34,606 nt of DNA from Candidatus Parcubacteria bacterium (lineage in GTDB: Bacteria > Patescibacteriota > Minisyncoccia > Minisyncoccales > JAGLPU01): assembly GCA_023137175.1 (NCBI GenBank), contig JAGLPU010000020.1:1-34606 (forward strand), in the 5' to 3' direction. A program made the translations under genes and the position numbers. A model generated the notes under the pieces. It saw only the letters and a program-made list of their open reading frames with translations. It ran no database searches and had not been told where the DNA came from. Position 1 is the stretch's first letter. Every line of letters starts with the position of its first letter. This document shows, one piece after another, positions 10,944-25,862 of this stretch.

Positions 10944-10985
10944 ATGTTCATTGATAATAAAATACGAGGTGGAAAACATGAGTGA
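10944..10985 (+). other. Possible 13-codon leader ORF overlapping the main start
   Basis: An ATG about 5 nt after the predicted transcription start opens a 13-codon frame. It reads through the SD, and its TGA (10983-10985) lies just inside the main gene (start 10978), in another frame. It may be fortuitous. Confidence 0.2.
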
Positions 10986-11934
10986 AGAAAAAAGCACTAG
11001 GCTGCAGAAGGGATATTGGTTTGACAATCCCTTTAAAATTGGACAAAAAAGAGCTGAAATATTCTCTGATTTGTATATAAACCGCACAAGGCTGACTTTG
11101 GAAAAAGACAATTTTCATCCTGAGGTTATTGTGGAATTCTATCTCAATCAGCCAAATGCTACTTATAGGATAGATGAAGCACTGGCTCTTCTCAGAATTG
11201 GAACTGGTTTTTTTAAAGAAGATAAATTTGTTGATAGCTGGGGAAAGCTTATTGTTAAAGCTCTCTATAACGGAGAAAAAGCAAAAATTGGAGAACCAGT
11301 GATAATTGTTGAAGGAGATTATCAACACTTTTGCCATTTAGTGCCGATCGCTCAAAAAATTTTAGCGGGACGCTTTGAAATAACCGAAGCCATAACCAGA
11401 GATGGCATACAACTCCCCATATATTATTGCCGTGACGATTTGAACAAAAAGTCACTGGAAGAAACAATAAGATGGGGAATAGTGCCTGAAGACCTTATTA
11501 CTGTTTATGGAAGCGCGGCAATAGCGGCAAGCAAGTTTATTACATCGTCTAGTGTCAGCATAATCCCTGTTGTTTCTTTAGACAAAAACTGCATTAACGC
11601 CGCTTATAAGATCACTCGAATGACGGCGCAACAGCAATGGGGAGTCTGTTTCAAGAAAATGGATGAAATAGAAATTTCCGACCTGAATTTAATTAAAAAA
11701 TTCAGGAAAAAATTGGACAAAAGTAGTTTTGGTTGGGTTAAAATAATGCTTTTGACAGGACTGTCGGGATTAAAAAATCCAAATGTTCTTAAAGCAATAA
11801 AAGCAAAACAATTCCCAATTGATGTCGTCGGTTTAACCGATTATTCTGCATCCTACGAATATAACTCAAGGATAGTCCCTATAAATGGAAAACCTAAATA
11901 TATAGAAAACCCACGGTTAAAGATCGTTAAATAA
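10978..11934 (+). CDS. Nicotinate phosphoribosyltransferase-like protein, active site degenerate
   Basis: This 318-aa protein resembles the NAPRTase family, which joins nicotinate to PRPP in NAD salvage. Matching parts are SDLYINRT (30-37) at the N-terminus, GEPVIIVEGDYQHF (about 104-117) with the following helix, and the C-terminal DVVGLTDYSASYEYNSRIVPINGKPKY, which corresponds to the family's GVG...D-x-V-x-x-N-G-K-P element. The middle is divergent. From memory, I cannot find the FG-R-R-x-H-P stretch, the G-T-M-P-H segment or the R-L-D motif, so catalysis is doubtful. The ATG at 10978 is chosen because GAGGTGG (10966-10972) is well placed. It is a monocistronic cassette with its own promoter and terminator. 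Confidence 0.6.
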   Translation: MSEEKSTRLQKGYWFDNPFKIGQKRAEIFSDLYINRTRLTLEKDNFHPEVIVEFYLNQPNATYRIDEALALLRIGTGFFKEDKFVDSWGKLIVKALYNGEKAKIGEPVIIVEGDYQHFCHLVPIAQKILAGRFEITEAITRDGIQLPIYYCRDDLNKKSLEETIRWGIVPEDLITVYGSAAIAASKFITSSSVSIIPVVSLDKNCINAAYKITRMTAQQQWGVCFKKMDEIEISDLNLIKKFRKKLDKSSFGWVKIMLLTGLSGLKNPNVLKAIKAKQFPIDVVGLTDYSASYEYNSRIVPINGKPKYIENPRLKIVK

Positions 11935-11940
11935 AACACA

Positions 11941-11966
11941 CCAAGGCAATTGCCTTGGCTTTTTTT
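11941..11966 (+). terminator. Terminator fused to the next promoter
   Basis: The perfect palindrome CCAAGGCA/TGCCTTGG (11941-11958) is followed by C and seven T. The last two T are the TT of the TTGACA of the next cassette. Confidence 0.85.
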
Positions 11967-11993
11967 GACAAATCAGGAAAAATATGTTTTAAT
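11965..11993 (+). promoter_or_regulatory. Promoter of the 12068 gene
   Basis: A perfect TTGACA (11965-11970), 17-nt spacer, extended -10 TGT-TTTAAT (11985-11993). The predicted start is at about 12000, giving a leader of about 68 nt. Confidence 0.75.
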
Positions 11994-12000
11994 TAGCGTA

Positions 12001-12039
12001 ATGAATAGAGATAAGCTGGAAACTTCAGCTTATCAGTGA
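12001..12039 (+). other. Possible 12-codon leader ORF (MNRDKLETSAYQ)
   Basis: Its ATG is at or 1 nt after the predicted transcription start. It covers the leader hairpin and stops before the SD of the main gene. It is preserved without change in the second copy of the module, but so is everything around it, so this is weak support for translation. Confidence 0.3.
12010..12034 (+). promoter_or_regulatory. Leader hairpin, copy 1
   Basis: GATAAGCTG (12010-12018) pairs with CAGCTTATC (12026-12034), and two more pairs can form inside the loop. An alternative pairing, CTTCA with the TGAAG downstream, would use part of the same sequence, so two exclusive folds are possible. The SD lies about 23 nt after the hairpin. 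Confidence 0.55.
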
Positions 12040-12067
12040 AGCTCATTAAAAATCAAAGGTGATGAAG

Positions 12068-12676
12068 ATGAAAACAGATACTATTGCAAGAATGGAAAAA
12101 GCGATTGCAACAAGAGAGCAAAAAGAGAAAGAATTAAAAGAGAATATAGTAGAACCAGATCAAAAAGCAAAAAAAATGCTACCGTATTTCCAAAAAGAAT
12201 ATGATTGTATAAAGAAGTGCCGAGAGAAAGAGTTTCTGTCAGGTTTAGATACAGAAGTCTCTAGGTATTATAAAAATATAAATAGCGTGGTTCTTAAGAC
12301 AAAATACTGTTCTCTGCTCATAAAAATATTGTATGATGTGGGAGCAACGGCAGTGATAAACGGCGTATGCCGTCAAACAGAAGACTTGGCAAAGTCTTTC
12401 AGAAACCAAGAGGCTTTCTTAGAAATAGTATATGCACACGGGTTTTTATTAATGGAATATAATCCGCCAGCAGCCAAAGATGTTTTTCTAAGAATGAGCG
12501 AAGTAGTCGGGGACATCAAGAAGGCTACTCCAAAAACCTTTCAGCTTATAGGGGATATTTCAAAAAATTTGGCAAAGATATTCTCTAAGGAGGGATCTGA
12601 TCAAGCCAGAATGTACCTTAGGATAGCAGAGATATACCACAAGGAAGCCAAAATCCTAAGAACCCAGAAAAAGTAG
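12068..12676 (+). CDS. Hypothetical helical protein
   Basis: I do not recognise this 202-aa protein. It appears almost wholly alpha-helical: a charged N-terminal coil (about residues 1-60, rich in Lys and Glu) and a C-terminal part of helix pairs that could be TPR-like (LLIKILYDVGATAVINGVC, AFLEIVYAHGFLLMEYNPPAAKDVF, ARMYLRIAEIYHKEAKIL). No signal peptide or membrane segment is visible. The start is set at the ATG at 12068, because AAAGGTGA (12055-12062) is an SD; an upstream GTG at 12059 lies within that SD. It is a single-gene cassette between two terminators, sharing its whole leader with the next gene. Confidence 0.7.
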   Translation: MKTDTIARMEKAIATREQKEKELKENIVEPDQKAKKMLPYFQKEYDCIKKCREKEFLSGLDTEVSRYYKNINSVVLKTKYCSLLIKILYDVGATAVINGVCRQTEDLAKSFRNQEAFLEIVYAHGFLLMEYNPPAAKDVFLRMSEVVGDIKKATPKTFQLIGDISKNLAKIFSKEGSDQARMYLRIAEIYHKEAKILRTQKK

Positions 12677-12706
12677 CTTGTCATAAAGATAAAAGCATTT
12701 AGCTTG

Positions 12707-12733
12707 CGTCAAGAATTCTTGGCGTTTTTTTTT
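12707..12733 (+). terminator. Terminator fused to the next promoter
   Basis: CGTCAAGA pairs with TCTTGGCG (12707-12724, one G-U pair), then nine T that merge with TTGACA at 12732. The preceding block AAAAGCATTTAGCTTGCG recurs with one change before the terminator at 13420. Confidence 0.85.
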
Positions 12734-12760
12734 GACAAATCAGGAAAAATATGTTTTAAT
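12732..12760 (+). promoter_or_regulatory. Promoter of the 12835 gene
   Basis: TTGACA (12732-12737), 17 nt, extended -10 TGT-TTTAAT (12752-12760), identical to copy 1. Predicted start about 12767. Confidence 0.75.
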
Positions 12761-12767
12761 TAGCGTA

Positions 12768-12806
12768 ATGAATAGAGATAAGCTGGAAACTTCAGCTTAT
12801 CAGTGA
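12768..12806 (+). other. Possible 12-codon leader ORF, copy 2
   Basis: Identical to the frame at 12001-12039, with its ATG within 1 nt of the predicted transcription start. Confidence 0.3.
12777..12801 (+). promoter_or_regulatory. Leader hairpin, copy 2
   Basis: GATAAGCTG pairs with CAGCTTATC exactly as in copy 1. The one base that differs between the module copies lies between this hairpin and the SD. Confidence 0.55.
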
Positions 12807-12834
12807 AGCTCATTTAAAATCAAAGGTGATGAAG

Positions 12835-13401
12835 ATGCAAGAAAAAATCAAAACGACAGTTGGAGTAGCAGTAGGAATTTTTAACAATAACGGAGAGTTA
12901 TTGTTAAAAAGAAGAAAACAAATCCCGTCAATTACCAAAGAAAGTTACTACGGATGTTGGGAGCTTCCACTGATAGCTGTCCCAGAAACAAAGGAAAAGA
13001 AAATACCGTACAACTACTTGGGCTTAGTAGTGAAGAGAGAAATTAAAAAAAGATGGGGAATTGATATCTTTCTAGATCCAATACCGGCCCTTTATCCGAC
13101 AATGTTCAAAACTCCGGCCGGAGACTATGATCTGGCGATGATCACTGTTGTCGAAGCAATGATAATGGAGCTGCCAGAATCCATTGAAATAAAATGGGTT
13201 TCTCCCTCTGATCTCAATCTGTTGGCAGTGAAATTTGTTCCCGCAAAAATGGATAAAGGTAAGATCATAAAAAACGGAGAAGGGCTGTTGAGCGGAAAGA
13301 AAAGGCAGTTTCATATGGCTTTGAAAGCGATCAAGGTCGGATCCCCTTTCCCAGAATACAGGAGAACAGCCAACGAATTTCTCATAAGAGAACAAATATA
13401 A
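12835..13401 (+). CDS. Nudix-fold protein with degenerate Nudix box
   Basis: This 188-aa protein starts like a Nudix hydrolase: TVGVAVGIFNNNGELLLKRRKQ, then YYGCWELPLIAV in the place of the usual G-x-W-x-x-P-G-G. The Nudix box should read R-E-x-x-E-E-x-G but is REIKKRWGI (about residues 69-77), so the metal-binding glutamates are replaced by basic residues. The later strand (DYDLAMITVVEAMI) fits the fold. Hydrolysis is therefore unlikely; ligand binding or regulation is more plausible. The C-terminal 60 residues do not show a recognisable DNA-binding domain. The ATG at 12835 is placed by the SD AAAGGTGA; the GTG at 12826 lies in that SD. It is a single-gene cassette. Confidence 0.65.
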   Translation: MQEKIKTTVGVAVGIFNNNGELLLKRRKQIPSITKESYYGCWELPLIAVPETKEKKIPYNYLGLVVKREIKKRWGIDIFLDPIPALYPTMFKTPAGDYDLAMITVVEAMIMELPESIEIKWVSPSDLNLLAVKFVPAKMDKGKIIKNGEGLLSGKKRQFHMALKAIKVGSPFPEYRRTANEFLIREQI

Positions 13402-13419
13402 TAAAAAGCAATTAGCTTG

Positions 13420-13448
13420 CGCTAGGAATTTATTCTTGGCGTTTTTTA
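13420..13448 (+). terminator. Terminator of the 12835 gene
   Basis: CGCTAGGAA (13420-13428) pairs with TTCTTGGCG (13433-13441), with two G-U pairs, then TTTTTT. The sequence before it is nearly identical to that before the 12707 terminator. Confidence 0.8.
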
Positions 13449-13471: not shown

Positions 13472-14689
13472 ATGGAATTTACTTTACCTAGAATCCAAAA
13501 GATTACCAAATATGCGACTGTTTCGCATTTTCTTTTGATGTTTGGCTATAAGTTTTTCTCTCTGTTCTTTCCTTTGTTTTTAATAGCTAAAGGATTTTCT
13601 CTGCCGGAAGTGGGTTATGCTTATCTTTTATTGTATGTGCCGATCGCTCTTTTTTCGCCGGTAGTCGGCTTTTTAAATCACAAAATAAATCCGGCTATTC
13701 TGGCCGCAGCCGGCATTCTCGGTTATGGAGCCTATTCTCTGGGAATGATCTTTATCCAAGAACAATATTTATTCTATTTTCTGCAAATCTTACTGGGAAT
13801 CTCAGCCGCATTTTTTATGGTTTCTTTTCGGGCAATTTTAATAGGGCTACCTTTGGAAAACTATAATCGGTCTTTTGGCTGGTTTTACTCAGCTCCATCT
13901 TATGCCGCTGTTTTGGCTCCACTGATAGGCGCTGTAATCATTTGGCAGTTTGGTTTTGTTGGCGTTTTCACGGTAAGCCTATTTTTTCATCTTTTCAATG
14001 CTGTTTTTTGCTTCACTTACTTAAGAAAACCATCGGCAAGCCTAGTTGATAACGGCTTTAGTTTCCTGCAGTTTATGGGAAATTACCAGAAATCAATATT
14101 CAAAATTTTTAAGAAAGCTATTCTTCCTTTTGTGCTTATTTCTTTCTCCACTTTATTTCTAGCAGGTTTTTACCGAGCATTTTTTCTTTTATTCCTAAAA
14201 GATATTGGCTGGGAACAAAACCAGGTTATTTTGTTCTGCTCTTTGCTTCCTTTAGTATTTCTGCCGGTGTCTTTGTTGATAATTAAAAGGCTTAAAAAGC
14301 GAGAGGGAAACAGCAATATTATAAAAGGAGGCTTAATTGTTGCCGTATTTTCAATTCTATTCGGACTATTTGGAATGGTTTTAAACGCTCTTGTCTTTTT
14401 TAAAATATCAATTATAACAGCGGCTGTTATTTTGGCTTTGATGATTGGAAAATCTATTGGCGACTTTATAGCTAATTCCGGACGCAGCAGCCTGCTTTCT
14501 AGAAAATTAAAAGAATACCCCGAAGAAGCCGGAGCCATAGACACAATATTCGCTCCTTTGGGAGCCGGAATAGGCTCTCTTGTCGCCGGCTTAGCTATTG
14601 GTTTTCTGGATTTTAGCCTATTATTTATCCTTGGCGGAGCTATTGTTTTGGCAACAGTTATGCTAGGAAAACGGCTGATTAAGATTTGA
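13472..14689 (+). CDS. Major facilitator superfamily transporter
   Basis: A 405-aa integral membrane protein with about 12 hydrophobic segments in two halves, split by a basic cytoplasmic loop near residue 190-215 (KPSASLVDN...NYQKSIFKIFKKA). The first segments include LLMFGYKFFSLFFPLFLIAKGFSLPEVGYAYLLLY; the loop after them carries no strict GxxxDRxGRR motif. The last segments show APLGAGIGSLVAGLAIGF. The substrate cannot be read from the sequence. It has no SD and may be leaderless. It sits among nucleotide-enzyme-like cassettes, but a functional link is unproven. Its TGA stop overlaps the -35 box of the next promoter. Confidence 0.8.
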   Translation: MEFTLPRIQKITKYATVSHFLLMFGYKFFSLFFPLFLIAKGFSLPEVGYAYLLLYVPIALFSPVVGFLNHKINPAILAAAGILGYGAYSLGMIFIQEQYLFYFLQILLGISAAFFMVSFRAILIGLPLENYNRSFGWFYSAPSYAAVLAPLIGAVIIWQFGFVGVFTVSLFFHLFNAVFCFTYLRKPSASLVDNGFSFLQFMGNYQKSIFKIFKKAILPFVLISFSTLFLAGFYRAFFLLFLKDIGWEQNQVILFCSLLPLVFLPVSLLIIKRLKKREGNSNIIKGGLIVAVFSILFGLFGMVLNALVFFKISIITAAVILALMIGKSIGDFIANSGRSSLLSRKLKEYPEEAGAIDTIFAPLGAGIGSLVAGLAIGFLDFSLLFILGGAIVLATVMLGKRLIKI

Positions 14690-14712
14690 CAAATAAAGAA
14701 ATCTGTTCTAAA
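14686..14712 (+). promoter_or_regulatory. Promoter of the 14774 gene
   Basis: TTGACA (14686-14691) includes the TGA stop of the MFS gene. After 15 nt comes the extended -10 TGT-TCTAAA (14704-14712). The -10 block is repeated at 15238-15261. Confidence 0.65.
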
Positions 14713-14722
14713 AAGACGGCAA
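14699..14722 (+). repeat. 24-nt promoter block, copy 1
   Basis: AAATCTGTTCTAAAAAGAC-G-GCAA matches 15238-15261 at 23 of 24 positions. It spans the extended -10 and the predicted start of two adjacent cassettes. Confidence 0.8.
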
Positions 14723-14740
14723 GGCTGAAAACTCAGCTTT
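14721..14740 (+). promoter_or_regulatory. Leader hairpin of the 14774 gene
   Basis: AAGGCTGA (14721-14728), loop AAAC, TCAGCTTT (14733-14740), one G-U pair. The core (GCTG...CAGC around a loop with AAAC) and the downstream GTTAAAAA-G-GGTG resemble the leaders at 12010 and 12777, so this may be a diverged version of that module. Confidence 0.5.
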
Positions 14741-14773
14741 TAAACAGGTTCGTTAAAAAAGGGGTGTTGCAAT

Positions 14774-15187
14774 ATGGAAAAAAAAGAAAGAGATGTGGCT
14801 GAATTAAAGGAATATGCCGAAAAAATAAATAATGTACTGGAAACAGTTTTCAAAACGCTAGAAAGAGATTACATTGGAGAATGGCATATGGAATATAGAG
14901 AAAAGTCTTATCATGCCGGGGAATTATCAGAACATGCTACTATTGGACGGGATACTCCGAAAGAAGTATTAACACCTGTCTCTTCGATATTTCCAGGCAA
15001 GGAACTAACTTTGATTTTAACAAGAAATACGCGAGACCAAATTGGAAAAGCAGTATGGAAAATTTCTTCCGGATGGCCTTCTGACGATCTGAAAAAAATC
15101 ATAAAAGATGCGTTAAAAAGTCAAGGATTGGAACTAGAAGACAATAAAATACTAAGTGTAGAACCAGAAAAGCTTTTGCCCCGATAA
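14774..15187 (+). CDS. Hypothetical protein
   Basis: I do not recognise this 137-aa soluble protein. It starts with an amphipathic helix (about residues 8-33), followed by a beta-rich middle (EWHMEYREKSYHAGELSEHATIG, LTLILTRNTRDQIGKAVWKIS) and a C-terminal helix (SDDLKKIIKDALKSQGLE), ending in a charged tail. No signal peptide or membrane segment. The ATG is preceded by a strong SD (GGGGTG at 14761-14766). It has its own promoter, leader hairpin and terminator, like the neighbouring cassettes. Confidence 0.7.
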   Translation: MEKKERDVAELKEYAEKINNVLETVFKTLERDYIGEWHMEYREKSYHAGELSEHATIGRDTPKEVLTPVSSIFPGKELTLILTRNTRDQIGKAVWKISSGWPSDDLKKIIKDALKSQGLELEDNKILSVEPEKLLPR

Positions 15188-15195
15188 ACTTATTT

Positions 15196-15226
15196 GCCTA
15201 ACCGAAACGGTTAGGCGTTATTTTTT
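15196..15226 (+). terminator. Terminator fused to the next promoter
   Basis: GCCTAACCG (15196-15204) pairs with CGGTTAGGC (15208-15216) around AAA; a T-rich run follows. Its last two T begin the TTGACA at 15225. Confidence 0.9.
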
Positions 15227-15251
15227 GACAAAAACACAAATCTGTTCTAAA
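15225..15251 (+). promoter_or_regulatory. Promoter of the 15297 gene
   Basis: TTGACA (15225-15230), 15-nt spacer, extended -10 TGT-TCTAAA (15243-15251). The same spacing and -10 are used at 14686. Confidence 0.65.
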
Positions 15252-15261
15252 AAGACAGCAA
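15238..15261 (+). repeat. 24-nt promoter block, copy 2
   Basis: AAATCTGTTCTAAAAAGAC-A-GCAA, 23 of 24 identical with 14699-14722. The leader after it is different (T- and A-rich, no clear hairpin). Confidence 0.8.
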
Positions 15262-15296
15262 TCAGTTTTTTTAAAATATATATAAGGGGTGAGTTG

Positions 15297-15803
15297 ATGG
15301 AAAGAACAATGCAGAAAAAAATAGAAATAATCTTTGAAGAAATGAAAAAGAATTTGGACAATACAAGCAAAGCTGGCATCTATCTGGTATTTTATACAAG
15401 TCTGACAAATAGAATCATGTTTAGAAAAAACTCTTTCGGGCAATGGAGACTTCCTGACACAAAAGCGGTAATTAACAACTTTGAAGATATAGAGCCTGAA
15501 ACAATCATTGATTCTCTGGAAAAAGGATTAGTAAAAGATGTGGGATGGAAGCTGGAAGAGTTGCCTGAGTCAACAAATATCGTAATTGATTCTTCGGAGC
15601 CCGTGGCTGTTATAATTTTAACAGACCTTAAAAACCATATAAATACGGAAGAAAGATTTGCCAACTTCGTTAAAAATAAAAAATTAAAGTTTTTTTCGCG
15701 GCAAAAGATCATTAAAGTGGAAAAAGAGCCGGATGAATTTATCAAAAAAGCTTTTAGAGCAATTATCGCCAGGTCGCCAAAGTCCTGGCTTTTTTTTGCG
15801 TAA
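15297..15803 (+). CDS. Nudix-like protein with degenerate box, terminator inside its 3' end
   Basis: A 168-aa protein from the ATG at 15297, placed by the SD AAGGGGTG 5 nt upstream; a longer frame from 15225 would make the promoter coding. AGIYLVFYTSLTNRIMFRKN followed by FGQWRLPDT resembles the entry to a Nudix fold, and TIIDSLEKGLVKDVGW lies where R-E-x-x-E-E-x-G is expected, again without the metal-binding glutamates. A strand (PVAVIILTDLKN) and a C-terminal helix follow. The last 12 codons or so are encoded by an intrinsic terminator (15768-15797), and the TAA comes after the T-tract, predicting transcripts without a stop. The Nudix relation is weaker than for the 12835 protein. Confidence 0.6.
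   Translation: MERTMQKKIEIIFEEMKKNLDNTSKAGIYLVFYTSLTNRIMFRKNSFGQWRLPDTKAVINNFEDIEPETIIDSLEKGLVKDVGWKLEELPESTNIVIDSSEPVAVIILTDLKNHINTEERFANFVKNKKLKFFSRQKIIKVEKEPDEFIKKAFRAIIARSPKSWLFFA
15768..15797 (+). terminator. Terminator inside the 15297-15803 reading frame
   Basis: GCCAGG (15768-15773) pairs with CCTGGC (15784-15789), followed by eight T (15790-15797). The TAA stop is at 15801-15803, beyond the T-tract. Confidence 0.85.
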
Positions 15804-19106: not shown

Positions 19107-19130
19107 TTATATCCAATAATCTGCTATATT
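19101..19130 (+). promoter_or_regulatory. Possible promoter of the pseudopilin gene
   Basis: TTGTAA (19101-19106), an 18-nt spacer and an extended -10 TGC-TATATT (19122-19130). The block TGCTATATTAAA-TATAATATATAAATAT recurs before frr at 20418. Several further TATAAT-like words downstream make the true start uncertain. Confidence 0.4.
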
Positions 19131-19174
19131 AAACTATAATATATAAATATTAGTATAATATTAATTAAACGATT

Positions 19175-20396: not shown

Positions 20397-20425
20397 TTGT
20401 TTTCTTTAATCTTCTTTGCTATATT
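20397..20425 (+). promoter_or_regulatory. Promoter of the frr operon
   Basis: TTGTTT (20397-20402), 17 nt, extended -10 TGC-TATATT (20417-20425). The predicted leader is about 25 nt and has no SD. Only a weak hairpin (GAGC/GCTC near 20375-20386) separates it from the pseudopilin gene. Confidence 0.45.
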
Positions 20426-20456
20426 AAAATATAATATATAAATATAAAGTAAAATT

Positions 20457-25397: not shown

Positions 25398-25433
25398 ATG
25401 CTCTTTAAAAAGAGTTATAAGATTAAGAGGTGA
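25398..25433 (+). other. Possible 11-codon leader ORF (MLFKKSYKIKR)
   Basis: The ATG coincides with the predicted transcription start. Five of its eleven codons are Lys or Arg. Its TGA (25431-25433) is the end of the SD word GAGGTGA of the main gene, so a terminating ribosome would be placed for reinitiation at 25440. The leader also holds a short hairpin (CTCTTT/AAAGAG). Confidence 0.35.
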
Positions 25434-25439
25434 TGACCG

Positions 25440-25862
25440 ATGGTTGGAGAAGATGGCACTTACAAAATAGGAGATTTCGATCCGGACTTAATGAGACTTC
25501 TAAACAACATAGAACAAGAAATTTCCAAAATGGAAGTGTATGAAGTAAATCCGGAAAGATTAAGAAGCCTATATTCCATATACGGAGAAGGTGGAATAAT
25601 GCTTGGCGTACCAATAAGATACATAAGAGACGACATTAATCTGAAAGAGGGTTACGAAATTCTTGACCAAAAACGTAAGCGCGTAGAGGAAAAAATTCCT
25701 GAAGGAATACCATTCCAGGCAAGATTGAAAATAGAAGATGTTACGCAAAGCGCCTACGAAGAAGCTGTCCAAGGATTGGAAGAAATACATAAAGACAAAG
25801 AAGCGGCAAAACAACGGGCTGAAGATATAAATAAAATGGAACAATTCGTGCCCTATGTTTAA
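25440..25862 (+). CDS. Hypothetical protein
   Basis: I do not recognise this 140-aa soluble protein. It has an acidic N-terminus (MVGEDGTYKIGDFDPDLM), a helix (RLLNNIEQEISKMEVYEV), a short beta-rich centre (GGIMLGVPIRYIRDDINL) and a long charged C-terminal helix (AYEEAVQGLEEIHKDKEAAKQRAEDINKM). The ATG follows a strong SD (AGAGGTGAT) by a normal distance. It is a stand-alone cassette of the same build as those at 10904-15803, with its own promoter and terminator, located just before the tRNA genes. Confidence 0.7.
   Translation: MVGEDGTYKIGDFDPDLMRLLNNIEQEISKMEVYEVNPERLRSLYSIYGEGGIMLGVPIRYIRDDINLKEGYEILDQKRKRVEEKIPEGIPFQARLKIEDVTQSAYEEAVQGLEEIHKDKEAAKQRAEDINKMEQFVPYV

Follow-up and report, generated by a model that had tools for sequence, protein, structure and literature searches.

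The window, the whole stretch of 34,606 nucleotides analysed here, contains on its forward strand two ORFs in tandem, each preceded by nearly the same promoter and 5' leader and followed by a terminator. The preliminary description of this DNA had reported that positions 11965-12070 and 12732-12837 are identical except for one base, that promoter, hairpin, Shine-Dalgarno (SD) sequence and start codon are all part of the repeat, and that the proteins that follow are unrelated. All three statements were borne out. The only difference within the repeat is an A at 12048 instead of a T at 12815, and the similarity extends slightly on both sides (11960-12073 and 12727-12840, 98% over 114 nt), starting at the T-run of the terminator before it, taking in the start codon and ending at most two codons into the ORF. 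In a search of the organism's own genome, the repeat departed from chance with an E value of 4e-52.

In the first copy, the T-run of the upstream gene's intrinsic terminator (11940-11966) merges into the -35 box of a consensus-like promoter (11965-11993), composed of TTGACA at 11965-11970, a 17-nt spacer and TTTAAT at 11988-11993. Transcription is predicted to start near position 12000. The leader then carries an 11-bp hairpin with a 3-nt loop (12010-12034; -18.4 kcal/mol, z -2.7), a site resembling boxA (AGCTCATTAAAAAT, 12040-12053) and an extended SD (AAAGGTGAT, 12055-12063). The corresponding elements of the second copy are the promoter at 12732-12760, the hairpin at 12777-12801, the boxA-like site AGCTCATTTAAAAT at 12807-12820 and the extended SD at 12822-12830. 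The single base that distinguishes the copies falls inside the boxA-like motif. No known Rfam leader or riboswitch was found at the gathering score, the only matches in the window being three tRNAs. Both copies also contain a 12-codon upstream ORF (MNRDKLETSAYQ, stop TGA; 12001-12039 in the first), which starts at about the predicted transcript start and covers the hairpin. It was rejected as a conserved element, as inspection of the other leader families described below revealed no counterpart.

The first enclosed ORF (12068-12676) codes for a protein of 202 amino acids that is all-helical by structure prediction (pLDDT 67), and the second (12835-13401) for one of 188 amino acids with a weak resemblance to a degenerate Nudix protein. 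Their similarity is at the level of chance (z 0.0 for the coding DNA and 0.1 for the proteins). The predicted helical structure of the first had no PDB match at E 0.001; the structure model of the second was of poor quality, and no homolog of it was found among 84,980 genomes. Neither has a detected homolog in the sister genome, designated G001, the assembly of which breaks in this region. There was no significant PHROG match that would point to phage origin, and the leader hairpin was not found in viral contigs. A second weakly Nudix-like protein, with a GQWRLPD motif and no library match, is encoded at 15297-15803 and is possibly a remote relative of the product of the ORF at 12835.

The terminators behind the two ORFs (12691-12730 and 13404-13447) are homologous as well (44 aligned columns, z 14), and a pattern built from both matched only these two places in this genome and in G001. 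Since the terminators are homologous and the leaders nearly identical, a shell of leader and terminator has been duplicated around unrelated ORFs. The earlier proposal that the leader is copied or conserved as a unit thus describes the leader correctly but is incomplete, as the homologous terminators were also duplicated.

To place these leaders in context, all gene-upstream regions were compared in the 779-kb assembly of this genome (G000) and, except for 6 kb of one contig, in G001, the sole genome of the same genus included; both are draft assemblies with home-made gene calls. The RpoA protein is closest to those of Parcubacteria MAGs; the nearest named groups include Wildermuthbacteria and Nealsonbacteria. 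About ten recurrent leader families, the repeat described above being one of them, were found in G000, mostly clustered and located before lineage-specific ORFs. They include the pair at 14685 and 15224 of the window, three copies at C16 with C19, four at C10, four at C31, and further families at C14 with C24, C11 with C13, C27 and C12. Within families the leaders are alike and the proteins mostly unrelated, with occasional remote relatives (C10, and C30 of G001). This pair in the window, family G, is related to the leaders of the repeat and consists of a leader at 14685-14773 before the ORF at 14774, with a hairpin at 14721-14740 and a weak boxA-like site (GGTTCGTTAAAAAA, 14747-14760, 5.6 bits), and of a second at 15224-15296 before the ORF at 15297, with a site at 15264-15277 (11.7 bits). 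A boxA-like site, TGCTCTTTAAAAAG, also occurs at 25399-25412 before the ORF at 25440. Elsewhere in the window, a promoter-like repeat of 29 nt (97%; 19122-19150 and 20417-20445) precedes a pilin-like ORF and the gene for ribosome recycling factor.

Between G000 and G001, orthologous leaders share 85-90% identity, whereas their proteins are 34-47% identical in five pairs and 70% in a sixth; at the sequence level, these leaders are thus better conserved than the proteins behind them. At the rnhB/rpmF-nusB locus, G001 has one leader-ORF unit and G000 three, of which the one beside rpmF is the ortholog of the G001 unit and the other two hold unrelated ORFs. That the leader is regulatory, as had been suggested, is probable, given that other orphan genes lie behind leader arrays of a similar kind and that the hairpin stem covaries in a sister family, family E. 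There, 10 of 10 pairs were kept between species with three double changes, in a comparison of only three sequences, and 38 of 500 shuffles matched this result. The few changes make the covariation suggestive.

A boxA is the binding site of NusB-S10 and is normally known from ribosomal RNA genes. The resemblance to it was noticed when the other leader families were read side by side. As neither the G000 nor the G001 assembly contains rRNA genes, a scoring matrix was built from 16 rRNA leaders of other genomes of the same order (boxA approximately AGTTCTTTGAAAATTNAATA), with sites chosen by visual inspection, a step that allows some freedom. The rRNA sites themselves mostly scored 12-18 bits with this matrix, and in several of these leaders the boxA is preceded by a hairpin. 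Among 357 leaders of G000, the two described here scored best (14.6 bits for the first and 14.2 for the second), although the lineage's own rRNA boxA may differ from this same-order matrix. The ranking was maintained when the most similar rRNA site was dropped. The third-best site of the genome (TGTTCATTGATAAT, 10945-10958, 13.3 bits) precedes the adjacent upstream gene (10978-11934), which codes for a divergent protein resembling nicotinate phosphoribosyltransferase (NF005529, E 9e-14, below the cut-off).

Leaders reaching at least 9 bits were found before 23 of the 188 ORFs that have no G001 homolog, compared to 6.1 with dinucleotide-shuffled and 4.4 with column-shuffled controls. Genes shared with G001 showed no clear excess of boxA leaders; ten such leaders precede them. 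The motif is AT-rich and degenerate. In the leaders of ORFs without a G001 homolog, its plain consensus GYTCTTTRA occurred 10 times (7 after related leaders were collapsed) versus 0.7 expected and 0-2 for permutations. No overall enrichment was seen in G001, though orthologous leaders keep the site. As to position, the site starts at -28 in the leader of the repeat, and 18 of the 23 sites before orphan ORFs begin between -45 and -24. Among the boxA leaders of orphan ORFs, 87% carry an SD, compared to 20% of the other leaders of orphan ORFs. A simple pattern applied to G000 detected an SD in about 80% of boxA leaders and in about 20% of the genes that have an intergenic leader; strong SDs therefore mark the class of genes with boxA leaders. 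Of 384 genomes in the class, 82 contained boxA core, SD and ATG in combination, compared to 16 for a permuted motif; a looser, order-wide pattern used before this stricter one had given 109 versus 62 of 247 genomes. In the order-wide scan, the downstream genes, judged from their translations by the author, included orphans as well as ordinary genes (pyrE, thyX and a sigma factor among them), so that in the class the combination of boxA with a neighbouring SD extends beyond orphan genes. NusB is encoded in the genome (PF01029, E 1.3e-35). No match to the Rho family PF07497 was found in G000 or G001, which are drafts of 88-90% completeness.

As judged from sequence, the motif is similar to the boxA of rRNA operons in the same order, occurs before orphan ORFs more often than expected and adjoins a strong SD. 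The explanation that we favour, with a probability of roughly 0.55, is that the repeat is a promoter with a 5' leader made up of hairpin, boxA and extended SD, that it belongs to a large set of boxA leaders placed before fast-evolving, lineage-specific ORFs, and that it is controlled through NusB-S10. NusB-S10 would bind boxA on the nascent leader and, once bound, would control the access of the 30S subunit to the neighbouring SD, in the manner of Escherichia coli suhB. By analogy, repression is more likely than activation through S10-assisted loading of the 30S subunit. Genes with boxA leaders would then follow the pool of free NusB and S10, i.e. ribosome supply, and the leaders would have spread by local copying.

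A different reading of the motif, possible but considerably less probable, is that it is not a boxA and that UUCUUU or CUCUUU acts, within a structured leader, as an anti-SD or as one arm of a hairpin, by turns exposing and hiding the ribosome-binding site, as in a translational switch, a thermometer or a ligand sensor. In families B and C the motif is able to pair with a downstream AAAGAA or AAAGAG, with a compensatory change in each, and some boxA-like sites could pair with the SD itself; the pairing and the single compensatory change in family B keep the hairpin switch alive there. However, the motif in the leader of the repeat is not complementary to the SD core, and it is the rRNA matrix, not SD complementarity, that ranks the two copies first. 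The permuted control can moreover pair with an SD to much the same degree, although it is found five times less often in the class.

The order of hairpin and boxA, shared with several rRNA leaders of the order, might instead indicate antitermination of the rRNA type, in which boxA modifies RNA polymerase to read through terminators in or before the gene. This is unlikely, as Rho was found in neither draft genome, boxA adjoins the SD, and the intrinsic terminators come after the units.

The slower evolution of leaders than of proteins among orthologs, the remotely related tandem proteins at C10 and at C30 of G001 and the homologous terminators would all fit plain tandem gene duplication, followed by extremely fast protein divergence, with the leader retained by purifying selection only and boxA without function. 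Leader identity of 99% together with zero protein similarity requires recent copying as well, and the enrichment of boxA would be left unexplained; we consider this account quite improbable. Duplication of the 106 nt by an assembly artefact or a strain chimera, a concern raised at the outset for which the metagenomic origin of the assembly and the break of the G001 assembly in this region would speak, is very unlikely, because the copies differ at one base, their flanks are different and their terminators have diverged, and because arrays of this kind are also present at other loci and, in smaller number, in the sister species.

The recent spread or gene conversion proposed in the preliminary description agrees with the difference of 1% between the copies. 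Orthologous leaders differ by 10-15% between G000 and G001, so that the difference between the copies arose long after the two species had split. The suggestion of a mobile 106-nt module was not supported, as only two full copies exist and no third was found in the 779 kb of G000 or in G001; with no further full copies at unrelated places in either genome, the repeat is not an obvious mobile element. The two copies may stem from a unit that was duplicated locally as a whole, leader and terminator included, and whose intervening ORF was subsequently replaced. Alternatively, two older neighbouring units may have undergone recent gene conversion of their leaders. Since the terminators are more diverged than the leaders, an older duplication of the unit followed by leader conversion is tentatively favoured.

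For a small number of proteobacterial genes, boxA has been shown to control the mRNA (PMC5725501). At E. coli suhB, NusB/E on a boxA located 6 nt from the SD was proposed to block 30S binding, which is followed by Rho termination, and boxA-mediated translational repression was also described for the ParE-like gene CKO_00699 of Citrobacter koseri (PMC5725501). The leaders described here are similar in that the boxA-like site lies in the 5' UTR, less than 50 nt from the start codon and beside the SD, and in that NusB is encoded. They differ in their number, with about 30 candidates preceding orphan ORFs in a single genome versus 0-7 per genome, in the upstream hairpin, in the failure to find Rho and in the copying of leaders between unrelated ORFs; they are, in addition, candidates identified by sequence. 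The succession of a hairpin and a similar boxA sequence recalls the boxB-boxA antitermination leader of rRNA operons, from which the present leaders are distinguished by a protein ORF downstream, an SD directly after boxA and, again, no detected Rho. Unrelated ORFs lined up between repeated elements are also seen in integron gene-cassette arrays, but here the repeated element precedes the ORF as promoter and leader and is not a recombination site behind it.

Within the literature collection searched, no paper was found that links boxA or NusB regulation to Patescibacteria. Here boxA appears as a large set before the orphan genes of an uncultured lineage without detected Rho, and boxA beside the SD recurs across the class. 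More speculatively, and with a rather low likelihood in our estimation, the rRNA boxA might have taken on a broad role in regulating the mRNAs of lineage-specific genes in Patescibacteria lacking Rho, with the shells serving as homologous landing sites for swapped-in ORFs, so that arrays would grow already wired to ribosome supply. If true, these leaders would offer a handle on how ultra-small genomes couple the expression of unknown genes to the supply of ribosomes, would allow the role of boxA without Rho to be tested directly, and would provide a case of new genes possibly acquired behind ready-made regulatory shells.
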